A stretch of DNA of 7,716 bases, taken from positions 1 through 7,716 of the forward strand of contig JAUZQA010000185.1 of NCBI GenBank assembly GCA_030705665.1, read 5' to 3'. The DNA is from Bacillota bacterium. GTDB taxonomy: Bacteria; Bacillota; Bacilli; Bacillales_B; DSM-18226. Below the pieces are notes generated by a model. The model was not told the DNA's origin and searched no databases. It was given only the letters and a program-made list of their open reading frames with translations. Numbering within the stretch: position 1 is the stretch's first letter; the number at the start of each line of letters is the position of its first letter. Below, piece after piece: positions 1 through 5,782 of this stretch. Made by a program: the position numbers and the translations under genes.

Positions 1-1961
1 GTGTAACGAGGAGTAATATTTTGGTATTTTCCATTCCAAATCGCAAACAATGCACCGATCACAATCATAAAGGAACCGATCCAAATCCAATCCATCATCG
101 GATTAACTTTCACAAGGAATGTCGCATTGCCGTTTTTATCCCAAGTACTTAAAACAATATACAAATCTTCTTTCAAAGAAGAGATGATTGTAACTACTGA
201 AGAAGGTTGTGAATCCGTTTGGTTATAAAAGACTTTTTCCGGTTCATATGAACCAAGTTTTTCACCATTCTTAAACACAGTGATACCTGCATAGACAATG
301 TCATTACTATTTTCTTTTTTCTGATCCAAACGATCGTAATTAATGTGATAGGCTCCCAAATCGATTGACTTTCCTAATGAGACTGTTTTCATCGTTTGCA
401 AATCATAGTTTTGGGAACCAATAATCCCCATTGTAATACACGCAATTCCAAGATGAACAAGGTATCCGCCATAACGTCTACGGTTCTTAACCATTAAGCG
501 ATAAAGTGCCACAAAAGGATTTTCATTTGTCATCTTTCTTCTTGCTTTTACCCCTCTATAAAACTCTAAAAAGTGAGTGATTAATAATAGAGTAATGACA
601 CCATAGCCGATAACCGCCCAAGCTTTTTGCATACCCAAAGCAACCATTAATCCCATTGCAATGACAGCGAGTATTGCTGGAATTAAGAAGTTTTTCCTCA
701 GGTTCTTAACTGTTGAGCGCTGCCATGCCAAGAGTGGACAAACAGCCATTACAAACATCATACATAAAAGAATCGGTGCCTCTACTGTGTTAAAGAAAGG
801 AGTTCCAACCGTAACCTTTGTTCCTTTTACAGCTTCAGAAACTAATGGGAAAATCGTGCCCCAGAATACTGCAAACGCCGCACCTACCAACAAGAGGTTA
901 TTAATCAAGAAAGAACTTTCCTTTGAAACATATGATTGAAATTCTCCTGCACTTCTTTTTAGTAAACTATATCTGCTCATCAAAACATATAATGATGCAA
1001 TTACAGCAACACCCATGAAAATTAAGAAGTATAGTCCTAAATTTGAATTTGCAAATGCATGGACAGATGTGAGAACTCCGCTTCGTACTAAGAATGTTCC
1101 AAACAGGGTTAAAGCATAAGAGATGATGATTAAACTGATATTCCAAACCTTAAGCATATTTTTCCGTTCTTGAATCATCACGGAGTGTAAAAATGCAGTG
1201 GCCGTTAACCATGGCATAAAGGATGCATTTTCTACTGGATCCCATGCCCAATAGCCGCCCCAGCCAAGCTCAACATATGCCCATTGACCGCCAAAAATAT
1301 TTCCTAAGCTTAAGAACAACCATGCAATGATCGTCCAGCGTCGAGTCATTTTAATCCAGAAGTCATCCATATTTTTCATGATTAAGGCAGCCATCGCGAA
1401 AGCAAATGGAACGGAAAGTCCAACGTATCCAAGATATAATGTGACAGGGTGGATAATCATCCCTGGATTTTGCAGCATTGGATTCAAACCTCTTCCATCT
1501 GCAGGTACCGATGTTAAAACCTCAAATGGTTTAGCAACAAATCCAAGAATGAAGAAGAAAAATACTGCATTTGCCATTAAAATCGATACGATATACGGAA
1601 TCATTGGATTACCTTTCATTTTTCTGGAATAGGTAATCATAATGGAATAAAGTGTTAAAAAGAATGTCCATAAGAGTAATGAACCGGCGTTACTTGCCCA
1701 GAGAGCTGTTAATTTGTAAATCAACGGCAGGTCTTTGCTCGTATAATCAGTGACCGTTGCGTATTGAAATTGGGAAGTCCCTAATAAGTAAAACAAGGAA
1801 ATCATGGCAAGTGCTGCACAAATGAATACGGCAATTGTTCCGCCTTTACCGCTATTAATAAATTTTTGATTTTTTGTACTGATCCCCAGCGTCATGATCA
1901 GTAGTGAATAGATTGCAAGAGCTAAACCAAGGTAGATGGTAGCGTTAGCAAATAAAAACAT
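1..1961 (-). CDS. ccmF: CcmF/NrfE-family haem lyase subunit (C-terminal end cut by window edge)
   Basis: Polytopic membrane protein of System I cytochrome c maturation. The family takes haem from holo-CcmE and helps attach it to CxxCH motifs of apocytochromes outside the membrane. The frame is open from ATG at 1961 to the left edge, giving 653 codons without a stop, close to usual family length, so only a short C-terminus should be missing. The tryptophan-rich haem-handling (WWD) motif WGGYWAWDPVEN is at residues 234-245. Four histidines sit where CcmF haem-ligand histidines are expected: H171 (IIHPVTLYLGY), H259 (FLHS), H301 (TSVHAF) and H503 (YLVHLG). Many hydrophobic segments are visible, and a last membrane segment lies near residues 625-645. 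The start has an AGAAGGTGA ribosome binding site about five bases upstream. The gene lies 26 bases after ccmE and is probably co-transcribed with it. Family identification is firm; the substrate cytochrome is inferred. Confidence 0.95.
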   Translation of the reverse strand, partial: MFLFANATIYLGLALAIYSLLIMTLGISTKNQKFINSGKGGTIAVFICAALAMISLFYLLGTSQFQYATVTDYTSKDLPLIYKLTALWASNAGSLLLWTFFLTLYSIMITYSRKMKGNPMIPYIVSILMANAVFFFFILGFVAKPFEVLTSVPADGRGLNPMLQNPGMIIHPVTLYLGYVGLSVPFAFAMAALIMKNMDDFWIKMTRRWTIIAWLFLSLGNIFGGQWAYVELGWGGYWAWDPVENASFMPWLTATAFLHSVMIQERKNMLKVWNISLIIISYALTLFGTFLVRSGVLTSVHAFANSNLGLYFLIFMGVAVIASLYVLMSRYSLLKRSAGEFQSYVSKESSFLINNLLLVGAAFAVFWGTIFPLVSEAVKGTKVTVGTPFFNTVEAPILLCMMFVMAVCPLLAWQRSTVKNLRKNFLIPAILAVIAMGLMVALGMQKAWAVIGYGVITLLLITHFLEFYRGVKARRKMTNENPFVALYRLMVKNRRRYGGYLVHLGIACITMGIIGSQNYDLQTMKTVSLGKSIDLGAYHINYDRLDQKKENSNDIVYAGITVFKNGEKLGSYEPEKVFYNQTDSQPSSVVTIISSLKEDLYIVLSTWDKNGNATFLVKVNPMMDWIWIGSFMIVIGALFAIWNGKYQNITPRY

Positions 1962-1987: not shown

Positions 1988-2467
1988 TTATTTTTGAGTA
2001 GTTGTTGTCTTTGCAGGTAAATCTTCTTTGTGGGTCTCAGGATTATAGTTTTTCGGCATATCCTTTATACTTTTGCCTTCATATTTCGAAGGGCATCTTG
2101 TTTGGACACTTTCAGCTTTAAATTGATTATTTCCCAGCGGTGCTCCTTGAAGAATTGTATCAATGTTATCAGTAAAGTTATCTGGTTTTACTCCGTGATA
2201 AATAACATGCAGGGTTTCTGTATTCTTCTTGTCTTTATCTTTGAGATCAAATTGCAATTCAACTTTCTGTGCATCCCACTTTATTGATTTCTCTATTAAT
2301 AAACCTTCAACAGTGACATAATCCTTTTTGTGCTGATCCTGTGTTGCGATAAGCTGTTTGAGTGGAAGTTCCACCCCGCTTGAACCTGGGGTAGCAGCCA
2401 TTAGAAGGAATACAATTGCACCAGCAATAATAAAGCCGCCTATTAAAACCATTGTATTTTTTTTCAC
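1988..2467 (-). CDS. ccmE: CcmE-type haem chaperone, CxxxY variant
   Basis: Membrane-anchored periplasm-side haem chaperone that carries haem to CcmF. It has an N-terminal membrane segment (about residues 6-24), then a soluble domain with the OB-fold pattern of CcmE, including DYVTVEGLL and LHVIYHGVKPDNF. The haem-binding motif is CPSKY (C125, Y129), so cysteine replaces the usual histidine of HxxxY. This CxxxY form is known from archaea and some anaerobic bacteria as a System I variant. The C-terminal tail is hydrophilic and ends in a Thr-rich stretch. I chose GTG at 2467-2465 (159 aa), because the AAAGAGGG ribosome binding site (2483-2476) is about nine bases upstream. An in-frame GTG at 2476-2474 touches that site and has no room for one of its own. 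The gene begins 14 bases after the SHOCT-tail gene stops, suggesting a tight operon. Confidence 0.9.
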   Translation of the reverse strand: MKKNTMVLIGGFIIAGAIVFLLMAATPGSSGVELPLKQLIATQDQHKKDYVTVEGLLIEKSIKWDAQKVELQFDLKDKDKKNTETLHVIYHGVKPDNFTDNIDTILQGAPLGNNQFKAESVQTRCPSKYEGKSIKDMPKNYNPETHKEDLPAKTTTTQK

Positions 2468-2481
2468 ACCATACACCCTCT

Positions 2482-3519
2482 TTAAAGTAATTTCTTCATT
2501 TCTTCTTCGTATGTTTCTTGATCAATCTTTCCGTTTAAAAGCTTCTTACGTAGTTCTTTCTTCTCTTCAGCATTTGCCAATTTATCTATTTTTTTAGAAG
2601 TTGGTTTACCAGGCTGTTTCTTGGTTGATTTATTGGAAGTTAAAGAGGATGTTTTTCGCATTCTTCCTCTCAAACCAAAAAAGATGAATAATCCAGCTAT
2701 GATAATGGCTATTCCAATAATAGAGGCTCCTCCGATTCCAATAATCGGCTGTTTGCTCTTATCGGTATTACTTGTTGTTGTATTTCCGTTAACACCTGAA
2801 TGGGTTGAATCCTTTGGCGGCTGCTCTTTATTAATTACCGATAATGAAGATACATTATCCTTTTTGGTATAAGTAAATGAGTAGTTTACCGTATTTCCCG
2901 GTTTTACATTTTTGTATTCGTAATAATAAAGATCTTCTTTATAGTCACTTTTAGATGTGCTTTGTGCCTTTGGCGTTAATGCGATAGTTTTGGCATTCAT
3001 AGGTGCGTAGAATACAACATCCAATGTTCCAATGTCTGCTTGGTTCGTAAATTGATAGTTAAAGCTTTTTTGATCACTTACATTAATAGAGTTCGTATAA
3101 TACTCAATAACGTAACGGTATGTATCACCGTTTTTAATTGCCTTACCTGGTTTCCATGAGATGGTGCCCTTGTCCTTATTTACTTCAAATGGGCGTTGTA
3201 CTTCTGATTTATTTACATCAGGAAACTCCGCGACAAGATTGACCTCAAAATTTTTATCCTTTGTCGGAACAGGAATTTCTATATTGCCGCTATAATCCTG
3301 TCCACTTTTATTGGTAAAAGTCCCATACTGGCCTACTAGTAATGAGGGAGTGTCCTTTGGCCAGTCAGCCGGATAATCAAACTCTGGCATAACTTGAATC
3401 TGCATGTCTTGGTATGGAAATTTGTCCGCCTGGAAGGGAGCTTCGGCATTTGCATTTTTAATGACAAAACTTGATAAGAATGTTGTAATCACAAATAAAG
3501 CCAACAACTTCTTTCGCAT
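2482..3519 (-). CDS. Secreted, membrane-anchored protein of unknown function with SHOCT-like C-terminal tail
   Basis: I do not recognise the extracellular part. The 345-residue product has a Sec signal peptide (residues 1-25, positively charged start, hydrophobic core, cleavage likely after NANA), then an exported domain of about 230 residues rich in Tyr, Asn and beta-type alternation. Next come a Ser/Thr/Asn linker, one membrane segment (about 257-282), a basic cytoplasmic stretch, and a terminal segment 317-345 with the pattern of a SHOCT short helical domain (LRKKLLNGKIDQETYEEE). It contains no cysteine at all, so it is neither a CcmG/CcmH thiol-disulfide protein nor a c-type cytochrome. 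The start has an ideal AGGAGG site six bases upstream. It is first in a probable operon with ccmE and ccmF, so a role in cytochrome c assembly or in presenting apocytochrome is reasonable inference, but no function is shown. Confidence 0.85.
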   Translation of the reverse strand: MRKKLLALFVITTFLSSFVIKNANAEAPFQADKFPYQDMQIQVMPEFDYPADWPKDTPSLLVGQYGTFTNKSGQDYSGNIEIPVPTKDKNFEVNLVAEFPDVNKSEVQRPFEVNKDKGTISWKPGKAIKNGDTYRYVIEYYTNSINVSDQKSFNYQFTNQADIGTLDVVFYAPMNAKTIALTPKAQSTSKSDYKEDLYYYEYKNVKPGNTVNYSFTYTKKDNVSSLSVINKEQPPKDSTHSGVNGNTTTSNTDKSKQPIIGIGGASIIGIAIIIAGLFIFFGLRGRMRKTSSLTSNKSTKKQPGKPTSKKIDKLANAEEKKELRKKLLNGKIDQETYEEEMKKLL

Positions 3520-3869: not shown

Positions 3870-4517
3870 CTACTTTTTCTGTAGCGAACGAATATAACTG
3901 ACAATATCGGTGATGTCATTTTCCTTTAACTGCCGTACGCCTTCCTGACCTTTTAAAGATGGTCCCATCCTGGTATCTTCACGACCGAATGCTGTGGTGA
4001 TCCAGATTTGCTTATCACTTGTGTATTTCAAGTATTCGGTATTTGATAAAGAGGGTCCCATTTTTTGCATTCCAGCTGCATTTTCACCATGGCAGGTGAG
4101 ACAATAGGTTTTGTAAAGACGAATACCGTTTTGAACATTCCCTCTAATATCCTTTGGTGCAGAGAGTGCAATGTTTTCTGTTTGCCAATTTCTAATATAA
4201 GCTACAAGATTATTTAGATCCTTATTCGAAAGAGATTGATAACTCGGCATCTCAGTGCCAGTTCGGCCATACCTGATATAATTTTTTAAATCATTGTCCG
4301 AACTAGTATTAAGGAAGTGTTGATTATTTAATGCTGTACCAGTCTTCGGTCCTTCACCTTTTCCAGTTTCACCATGACAGGTGATGCATTGCTGTTCAAA
4401 AATCTTTTCTCCAGCTGAAACAACTTTATTTTTCTTTTCTTGAAGGTCATTACTAAGTAGCAGGATAAAAATCCCCACTATAATAATAAGATAAAGCCCT
4501 ATTAATACTTTTTTCAT
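3870..4517 (-). CDS. Membrane-anchored di-haem cytochrome c
   Basis: Extracytoplasmic electron carrier with two covalent haems. From ATG at 4517 it is 215 residues: an N-terminal membrane anchor (about residues 4-21), then two class I cytochrome c domains in tandem. The first has CITCH at 44-48 and a likely axial Met at 90 (TEMPSY). The second has CLTCH at 139-143 and a likely axial Met at 184 (TRMGPS). Each ends in the usual C-terminal helix (LVAYIRNW and IVSYIRSLQ). I chose the 4517 start because ribosome binding site AAGAGGTG (4529-4522) is directly upstream and the protein then begins with its anchor (MKKVLIGLYL). An in-frame ATG at 4583 would add 22 non-hydrophobic residues inside the tail of the preceding gene. 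The gene starts ten bases after the lipoprotein TAA, so the two are probably translationally coupled. Its redox partner is unknown; the CcmE/CcmF proteins encoded downstream could mature it. Confidence 0.93.
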   Translation of the reverse strand: MKKVLIGLYLIIIVGIFILLLSNDLQEKKNKVVSAGEKIFEQQCITCHGETGKGEGPKTGTALNNQHFLNTSSDNDLKNYIRYGRTGTEMPSYQSLSNKDLNNLVAYIRNWQTENIALSAPKDIRGNVQNGIRLYKTYCLTCHGENAAGMQKMGPSLSNTEYLKYTSDKQIWITTAFGREDTRMGPSLKGQEGVRQLKENDITDIVSYIRSLQKK

Positions 4518-4521
4518 GGGG

Positions 4522-4530
4522 CACCTCTTA
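4522..4530 (-). promoter_or_regulatory. Ribosome binding site overlapping the lipoprotein stop codon
   Basis: On the minus strand TAAGAGGTG contains both the TAA stop of the selenoprotein frame (4530-4528) and the AAGAGGTG ribosome binding site of the cytochrome gene, four bases before its ATG. This overlap fixes the cytochrome start at 4517 and independently supports translation of the lipoprotein frame past its internal TGA. Confidence 0.8.
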
Positions 4531-4974
4531 CTTTTTTGGCTCAGGAGTTGGAGTTCCTTCTCCAAGGTTTCCATATTTCTCAACGATTAAATCATATGTT
4601 TCCTTTGGACTTTTACCACTATCATGCATTTGTATCGCGTCACGCGCGATATTTACACAGGTGTCTCACGTTATCCCATGCTGATCCCATGCTTCAACAG
4701 CATTATTGGAACCCATTTTTTGTACAAAGCAATTTAGGTTACTTTTATGTCCATCAGCTACACAGCCGCAAAAACATGGTACCTGAGAGAGGACATTAGG
4801 ATTGTTAGAAGCCATAACATATGTTTCTTGAACTTTAGTTGATGAATTTAAAACGTAATTAGGAAATGGTTGATGTTTCTTGTTTAGTGTTAAATCTTCC
4901 TTTTTAGTTCCACAGCCTGCCACAATAACGGCCAAGGCAATAATGGCTATTAGTATAAAAGAAAAACGTTTCAT
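4528..4974 (-). CDS. PCYCGC-type lipoprotein read as a selenoprotein (in-frame TGA = Sec103)
   Basis: Exported lipoprotein of the PCYCGC-motif family, whose function is not established. It has a lipoprotein signal with lipobox VAGC (C21), PCFCGC at residues 66-71 (C67, C69, C71), a GHKSNLNCF segment (H76, C82) and WDQHGIT at 96-102. Then comes TGA at 4668-4666, followed by DTC. The family normally has CxxC here (from memory of the family), so TGA falls on the first cysteine and gives UxxC (U103, C106). After the TGA the frame is open for 45 codons and stays family-like (NIARDAIQMHDSGKSPKETY, then LIVEKYG), ending at TAA 4530-4528; total 148 residues. A SECIS-like hairpin directly follows the TGA. 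AAAGGAGGGG is an excellent ribosome binding site before ATG 4974. The many Cys/His suggest redox or metal chemistry outside the membrane. Alternatives are a nonsense mutation or a sequencing error (TGT or TGC to TGA). Confidence 0.85.
4633..4668 (-). promoter_or_regulatory. Candidate bacterial SECIS element directing selenocysteine insertion at TGA 4668-4666
   Basis: Fourteen bases after the TGA begins a perfect 7-bp stem, TATCGCG (4651-4645) with CGCGATA (4639-4633), closed by the loop CGTGA (4644-4640). The loop starts 21 bases after the TGA and has G at its second position. This fits the general bacterial SECIS description: a short hairpin inside the coding region shortly after UGA, with a small apical loop and a G in the first two loop bases. 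It lies wholly within the open frame. The stem is GC-rich in otherwise AT-rich DNA. SelB recognition is inferred. Confidence 0.75.
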
Positions 4975-5113: not shown

Positions 5114-5782
5114 TTATATATTTTGGAGCCAGCCCTCTTGAAGAGCATAAGTAGCTGCTTGGACCCGATTATTCATTTGCAGCTTTTCCATAATATTTCT
5201 GAGATGATTTTTTACCGTATTTTCGGAAATACAAAGTGAAATCGCTATTTCACGATTGGTATAGCCTTTAATTACATGCATTAAGATTTCCTTTTCTCTT
5301 TTCGTTAGTATGTTTGTTTTCTTTAAAGTTCTTACCGATTTTAGTTCTGCTGGCTGATGGCTTGTTATAAATTCAACAATTTTTCTTACAATCGGTCCTG
5401 AAATGATACTCTCGCCTCGGTTAACCATGTGTATAAATGTTAGTAACTCATTAGGCAGTAAATTTTTTAACAAGTACCCTTTTGCTCCTAATCTTAGTGC
5501 TTCAAATAACTGATCTTCAATTTCCTCGATGGTTAACAAAAGGACCTTTACTTCCGGCATATTCTCAGAAATCTTCCTCAAAACCTCTAATCCGTCGATA
5601 TTTTGCAAATTCACATCCATTAATAGAACATCAGGTTTATATTGTTTTGTTAATTCATACGCATCATAGCCATTTTGAGCTTTGCCAACGATCTCCAATG
5701 TTTCATCATCAGAAAGAATACTTTCTATTCCTCGGATAAACATATAATGGGCATCGGCGATTAATATTTTGACCTTATCCAT
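5114..5782 (-). CDS. NarL/LuxR-family response regulator (orphan in this window)
   Basis: Two-component transcription factor of 222 residues. The receiver domain (about 4-120) has the phospho-acceptor D56 (LLMDVNL) and the conserved switch residues T84 and K106. The DNA-binding LuxR-type helix-turn-helix spans about 157-217 (LTKREKEIL, NREIAISLCISENTVKNHL). The usual acidic pair near the N-terminus (DD) is D10-A11 here, so one Mg-binding acidic residue is missing. The usual MPxMDG run is LQNIDG. This may weaken or alter phosphorylation. No histidine kinase is adjacent. The gene lies upstream of, and in the same direction as, the lipoprotein/cytochrome pair with a 139-base gap, so it is a likely regulator of that unit or of the maturation operon; this is inference. 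A long AT-rich leader precedes it. The start is ATG 5782, with a GAGGG site close upstream. Confidence 0.93.
   Translation of the reverse strand: MDKVKILIADAHYMFIRGIESILSDDETLEIVGKAQNGYDAYELTKQYKPDVLLMDVNLQNIDGLEVLRKISENMPEVKVLLLTIEEIEDQLFEALRLGAKGYLLKNLLPNELLTFIHMVNRGESIISGPIVRKIVEFITSHQPAELKSVRTLKKTNILTKREKEILMHVIKGYTNREIAISLCISENTVKNHLRNIMEKLQMNNRVQAATYALQEGWLQNI

Follow-up and report, generated by a model that had tools for sequence, protein, structure and literature searches.

A PCYCGC-family lipoprotein of Bacillus relatives as a predicted UxxC selenoprotein with a possible CcmH-like role

Known relatives of the family and the locus analysed

The closest described relatives of the gene considered here belong to the Pfam family PF13798, which a review table lists as CYCXC family protein (hypothetical protein OS_HP4) with the motif UxxC, U being selenocysteine (Sec) (PMC13188914, 2026); an earlier review also gives OS_HP4 as UxxC (PMC9312934). 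The NCBIfam model NF041379 carries the corresponding name 'CYCXC family (seleno)protein' (OS_HP4). Among PCYCGC lipoproteins with cysteine, AOT13_14730 of Parageobacillus thermoglucosidasius, known here from its description and not from its sequence, is encoded next to the gene of an Fe3+ substrate-binding protein and was given no function (PMC13068155). The cytochrome c machinery named for Bacillota is System II (PMC9145763). A CPSKY motif in CcmE is the mark of System I*, with firmicutes named among its carriers, and N-CcmH is considered a thiol-oxidoreductase acting on the cysteines of CXXCH motifs (PMC3601427). Here, we analyse a stretch of 7,716 nucleotides (nt) from a Bacillota bacterium (contig JAUZQA010000185.1 of assembly GCA_030705665.1), called the window throughout, and in it the gene of a PCYCGC-family lipoprotein that is interrupted by a single in-frame TGA and followed by a cytochrome c maturation cluster.

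The encoded protein belongs to PF13798 (99.5 bits over residues 33–146, gathering score 25). It is also matched by NF041379 over residues 45–134 (E 2.5e-20), but its score of 72.3 lies below the cut-off of 90, so it is related to the proteins of this model and not a member. Six further members of the family, two of them from other Sec clades, score 61.1–80.7 on the same model. Because all scored members fall below the cut-off, the NF041379 equivalog model misses this branch, and it could be broadened to include it. The first-pass annotation, made from the letters of the window, had supposed that a selenocysteine form of the family may be new. This guess did not hold, since PF13798 was already listed with UxxC and NCBIfam has its '(seleno)protein' model; the description as a new selenoprotein family was rejected on the CYCXC/OS_HP4 entry (PMC13188914). 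The family and the motif are known, and the branch looks new. Our literature search found the term CYCXC only in PMC13188914, and it returned no paper that brings together PCYCGC and selenoprotein, or Neobacillus and selenocysteine; the searched text of PMC5029168 does not mention the family names. Among the papers in which PF13798 occurs, PMC13188914 and PMC13068155 are the two of relevance to the family. No paper naming this branch was found, the original Olavius paper and two Haft papers, which could describe it, lying beyond the search.

The in-frame TGA codon and the SECIS hairpin

The alignment column of the TGA codon and a conserved selenocysteine insertion sequence (SECIS) hairpin lead us to predict a selenocysteine-containing PCYCGC lipoprotein of 148 residues. 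We consider it very probable that the gene at 4528–4974 encodes a selenoprotein with a UxxC motif. The reading frame opens with ATG at 4974–4972 of the minus strand, contains one in-frame TGA (4668–4666, codon 103) and closes with TAA at 4530–4528. Translation of 4974–4528 bears out the frame proposed in the first-pass annotation, which ran through the TGA at codon 103 to TAA. The overlap it saw between the true stop and the ribosome-binding site of the next gene is likewise present, as the TAA overlaps the AGAGGTG that precedes the ATG at 4517–4515. The residues around the TGA read WDQHGIT-U-DTC-VNIARDAI...KETYDLIVEKYG. The protein combines a lipobox (VIVAGC, judged by eye) ending in Cys21, a PCFCGC motif at residues 66–71, Cys82 and the pair Sec103-x-x-Cys106. 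In an alignment of 81 sequences, PCFCGC, C82, U103 and C106 are invariant columns, except for Y/F at position 68, and C21 is nearly invariant. The ratio of non-synonymous to synonymous substitution rates (dN/dS) upstream and downstream of the TGA is 0.06/0.06 in comparison with the orthologue of Neobacillus sp. PS3-12, the named relative closest to the window (protein identity 94%), 0.08/0.16 in comparison with genome G004, and 0.08/0.14 in comparison with the second PS3-12 copy. As estimated from these ratios, purifying selection goes on past the TGA.

Homologues were sought in 201 genomes picked as relatives of Neobacillus sp. PS3-12, and a family member was present in 101 of them, with 130 matches in all. 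The column count covers 129 of these matches plus the window; the match left out (G080:C123:14392) is the upstream part of a frame-broken copy. In each of the 85 TGA-bearing rows the TGA occupies the codon 103 column, and no other TGA occurs inside any match. The 45 TGA-less rows have Cys in that column without exception (45/45), which is what the first-pass annotation had expected of PCYCGC homologues. Its core reading, a PCYCGC lipoprotein in which Sec replaces the first Cys of a CxxC motif to give UxxC, is supported by this column and by the sel genes of the relatives described below. The TGA form, present in 62 of the 201 relatives searched, is widespread. Many of its database entries are truncated at this codon: among 64 homologues in databases, 39, including the window's own, end one residue ahead of it. 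The 102-residue database product P0009 (one member sequence) represents three contigs, which are perhaps non-independent assemblies. A metagenome homologue, P0030, has Trp at the Sec column together with an IAREA sequence typical of Sec forms; this Trp is possibly a TGA translated under table 4 by its annotator.

The hairpin behind the TGA was compared with published limits for bacterial SECIS (bSECIS) elements: a loop of 3–9 nt, a stem of 4–16 base pairs (bp), a spacing of 16–37 nt, G in the first two loop positions and a minimum free energy (MFE) of ≤ −7.5 kcal/mol (PMC13188914). The element of the window lies within these limits, with a loop CGUGA of 5 nt that begins 21 nt past the UGA, a stem of 6–7 bp and an MFE of −11.1 kcal/mol. 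That the hairpin exceeds chance follows from the comparison across loci and not from the fold of a single sequence. With identical 24-nt stems counted once (Sec reduced from 85 to 53, Cys from 45 to 44), the four inner stem pairs are intact in 53/53 distinct Sec stems versus 0/44 Cys sequences, and the hairpin that the first-pass annotation had placed at the right distance is real. Pair (20,32) is seen as CG, TA, TG and AT, and pair (23,29) as CG, GC and AT, while 2000 shuffles reached a maximum of 43/53 and 49/53 at these two variable pairs. The paired changes occur at synonymous third positions (ATC/GCG, ATA/GCT, ATT/GCA). The window's clade pairs Ala GCG with Asp GAC (3 sequences), and elsewhere GCC is paired with Glu GAG (48). 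The mean MFE after the TGA is −11.1 kcal/mol in Sec rows versus −6.4 kcal/mol in Cys rows (Mann-Whitney p 4e-16). At the Ala codon of the stem, identical-codon use amounts to 0.85 in Sec versus 0.35 in Cys genes; over the 20 codons upstream, taken for comparison, it is 0.50 and 0.48, respectively. The loop codon encodes Arg in 82/85 Sec loci versus 2/45 Cys loci, and Arg is kept in 6/18 Cys database proteins close to the window, these 18 being the members of P0002–P0022 that fit the search pattern.

Genes for selenocysteine incorporation accompany the TGA form. Both SelA and tRNA-Sec were found over the cut-off in 60/62 TGA-bearing genomes; among the 39 genomes with TGA-less members only, 20 have both and 19 have neither. 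SelB and SelD were over the cut-off in 5/6 genomes checked, and SelD itself contains a TGA in all five of them. The genome nearest to the window (G001) has selA, selB, selC and selD. In the exceptional genome G060, the SelA match has an internal TAG and tRNA-Sec was not found, yet SelB and SelD are present.

Several observations weigh against the prediction. The hairpin of the window taken alone is not significant (z −1.19; 19/200 shuffles fold equally well), the outermost stem pair is unconserved (58% in Sec versus 89% in Cys), and the kinship among the sequences inflates the stem-pair counts. Moreover, neither SelA, SelB, SelD nor tRNA-Sec was found over the cut-off in the 5.1 Mb of G112, which may reflect recent loss, missing sequence or contamination; the locus of this genome (L119, C28:32440) is a TGA form with an intact SECIS stem. 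If the TGA were a true stop, the gene would give a truncated product of 102 residues or be a decaying pseudogene. Gene callers do end there in the 39 of 64 database homologues, and the lack of significance of the single hairpin fits such a view, but the low dN/dS after the TGA, the single column in 85/85 rows, the covariation at the RNA level and the Sec genes in 60/62 TGA genomes strongly disfavour it, and we regard it as highly improbable. Decoding of the UGA as another amino acid, by general readthrough or a UGA=Trp code, appears more improbable still. The Trp of P0030 would fit it, though annotation under table 4 would look alike, whereas the aligned residue is Cys and never Trp in the 45 TGA-less loci, a second TGA is absent from all matches and the SECIS stem is confined to TGA forms. 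The same Trp might be taken to point to a sequencing error that turned a Cys or Trp codon into TGA in this assembly, the explanation to which we give almost no credence, as the TGA is found again at 84 homologous loci and P0009 represents three contigs. All of these alternatives (a true stop, a decaying pseudogene, erroneous sequencing, another decoding of UGA) were rejected on the recurrence of the column, the covariation, dN/dS and the Sec genes. The column, the hairpin, the machinery, the purifying selection and the database truncations combined leave little room for anything but selenocysteine.

Clades and the System I* neighbourhood

By motif, the loci fall into Sec-A, the window type (60 loci including the window), Sec-B (22) and Sec-C (3), next to a Cys clade of 40 loci and five Cys loci within Sec-A. 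The tree comprises 129 rows (the short row G172 was left out), with few columns and a midpoint root. It contains five Sec/Cys changes (bootstrap 4–5): 39 Cys rows make up one side, and five Cys rows are nested inside the window-type Sec clade. The nested rows are read, from their placement, as Sec-to-Cys changes. Such natural changes within one clade (5 loci) provide a ready comparison of both residues. The nested Cys forms (L028, L031, L064, L071, L020) are without the four-pair stem, and three genomes with nested Cys forms (G022, G040, G074) keep a Sec copy too. Among the 22 Sec-B loci (e.g., L117, L109), 10 are near a P-type ATPase gene and 7 near an ArsR gene.

Table 1. Features of the window, with the strand and basis of each assignment
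Feature	Coordinates	Strand	Basis
PCYCGC-family lipoprotein gene, predicted selenoprotein, 148 residues	4528..4974	−	Translation; PF13798; cross-locus TGA column
Predicted selenocysteine codon TGA, residue 103	4666..4668	−	Same column in 85/85 TGA-bearing loci; Cys in 45/45 others
SECIS stem-loop AUCGCG-CGUGA-CGCGAU within the coding sequence, 17 nt, loop 4640–4644	4634..4650	−	Fold and cross-locus comparison
Diheme c-type cytochrome (CITCH, CLTCH)	3870..4517	−	Start codon 10 nt past selenoprotein stop
345-residue exported/membrane protein, no Pfam match, next cluster gene	2482..3519	−	Conserved position
CcmE haem chaperone, CPSKY motif (System I* type)	1988..2476	−	PF03100, 71.3 bits
CcmF holocytochrome c synthase component, truncated at the window edge	3..1961	−	PF16327, PF01578

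The genes that follow the predicted selenoprotein gene in the window (Table 1) recur in its relatives. At 32 of 130 loci, the window included, position +1 is taken by a same-strand cytochrome homologue with two CxxCH motifs; these loci are all of the Sec-A kind (30 Sec, 2 Cys). Homologues of the 345-residue protein follow the selenoprotein gene at +2 or +3 in 27 loci, again including the window. The CcmE of the window reads RCPSKYEG and so carries the CPSKY signature of System I*. Same-strand CcmE genes 2.4–3.8 kb downstream of the family member were found in 28/201 genomes (26 Sec, 2 Cys). The cluster of Neobacillus sp. PS3-12 (L049, 2490–9800) goes on with CcmF, CcmH, two unassigned proteins, an ATP-binding cassette (ABC) ATPase where CcmA would stand, then CcmB, CcmC and a redoxin/thioredoxin protein, which is read as CcmG/ResA-like; the window stops short of that gene. 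CcmE is present in 68/201 relatives overall, and in 40/41 Sec-A genomes versus 28/160 others (Fisher p 1e-22, uncorrected for kinship). ResB of System II is also found in 4/4 genomes tested, the nearest kin of the window. Directly upstream of the selenoprotein gene, the window encodes a NarL-type response regulator (5114–5782, minus strand; NCBIfam match below the cut-off), which occupies the same place in G001, G004 and G014 and may point to a possible respiratory control of the cluster; at 18 other loci, elongation factor P (EF-P) lies directly upstream in place of this regulator.

CcmH resemblance, proposed role and comparison with known systems

The AlphaFold2 (AF2) model of the window protein has a mean predicted local distance difference test (pLDDT) score of 90.3. 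Its two best PDB matches are CcmH domains, from E. coli and P. aeruginosa, with weak E values of 0.43 and 0.55, and for a second family member that was modelled, CcmH appears at ranks 2 and 4 of the fold search. Alignment with hhalign to a profile of Bacillus CcmH gave 82.0–84.0%, and 88.6% without the signal peptide. The best of 60 column shuffles reached 21.7%, and 29 control families stayed at ≤ 30.1% after trimming; untrimmed, four control families reach 40–64% via their signal peptides. The E. coli CcmH alone gave 58.7% over 24 columns (GKSKKEI region). The residues C67, C69, C71, C82 and Sec103 align to the invariant CcmH cysteines C71, C73, C75, C82 and C87, respectively. On these alignments and the structural model, we propose that the window protein may work like CcmH. 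In one genome, a thioredoxin–PCYCGC fusion is encoded at 2234–3283 of L142 on the plus strand (PF00085, 25.8 bits, plus PF13798), and this fusion also speaks for a thiol redox role. CcmH proteins of Bacillus relatives without the Cys cluster (L161–L174) were seen in G192, G203, G204, G205 and G207, where they adjoin or accompany a Cys-bearing CcmH.

We lean towards the reading as a whole, that is, a selenoprotein with a CcmH-like thiol-disulfide reductase role. The specific part of it, a role in cytochrome c maturation as a CcmH-like thiol reductase, is a credible proposal to which we give slightly less than even weight. In such a scheme, the UGA would be decoded by SelB and tRNA-Sec, and the lipobox Cys21 would tether the protein to the outer surface of the cytoplasmic membrane. 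There, the Sec103/Cys106 pair with the C67/C69/C71/C82 cluster could keep or make the CXXCH cysteines of apo-cytochromes reduced, the first substrate presumably being the diheme cytochrome encoded next door. The System I* proteins of the downstream genes would then attach the haem, and the electrons may be drawn from the CcmG/ResA-like thioredoxin of the orthologous PS3-12 cluster. A selenocysteine CcmH-like reductase of apo-cytochrome c, dedicated to System I* in Bacillus relatives, with PF13798 as a divergent branch of the CcmH superfamily and UxxC/CxxC as its catalytic motif, is a more tentative and rather doubtful extension.

The main rival, which we consider unlikely, is a selenoprotein for metal handling, in which CxCxC, the further Cys and UxxC would serve detoxification or oxidase assembly by binding Cu(I) or Zn(II), or handing these ions on, outside the membrane. 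Such a function would fit the copies near genes of P-type ATPases (23/130 loci), ArsR (11) and SCO1 (6), one representative of each family being named by Pfam; these copies weigh against a CcmH-like role, as does the presence of CcmE in only 2/20 Sec-B and 2/39 Cys-clade genomes. Since Sec-B and Cys-clade genomes are mostly without CcmE, the CcmE link is confined to the clade of the window. DsbD_2 and rhodanese genes also lie beside other copies, multicopper-oxidase-like genes and Met-rich proteins are encoded no more than about 5 kb from the second PS3-12 copy, and CYCGC would resemble a soft-metal site. However, UxxC is more a redox signature than a metal site, the window copy belongs to a diheme cytochrome/ccm cluster whose conservation extends to 28 genomes, and the domain resembles CcmH. 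For a family with no assigned function, a testable role follows from the operon and the likeness to CcmH; a CcmH-like selenoprotein, if true, would connect the use of selenium with the maturation of cytochrome c in Gram-positive bacteria.

The locus shares the CPSKY type of CcmE with System I*, but a selenoprotein is unmentioned in the accessible part of the System I* account (PMC3601427). With CcmH/NrfF (PF03918), the protein has in common remote profile similarity, aligned Cys columns, the top of the fold search and genome linkage. It differs from CcmH in that the window protein (P0001) has no PF03918 match, PF13798 being its sole Pfam match at E ≤ 0.001, in that its Cys106 has no CcmH counterpart, and in that the window-type cluster already carries a CcmH gene of its own. 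PCYCGC lipoproteins with cysteine, such as AOT13_14730 (as described in PMC13068155), share the lipobox, the PCYCGC motif and the conserved cysteines, whereas the Cys loci examined here (n=45) have Cys at the Sec column and a SECIS stem in 0/44 distinct sequences. The Pfam family, the UxxC motif and the Cys-rich CYCxC signature are common to the CYCXC/OS_HP4 proteins and the branch of the window, which differs from them in being a lipoprotein of Bacillus relatives and, within the window's clade, in its association with a cytochrome c/ccm cluster.
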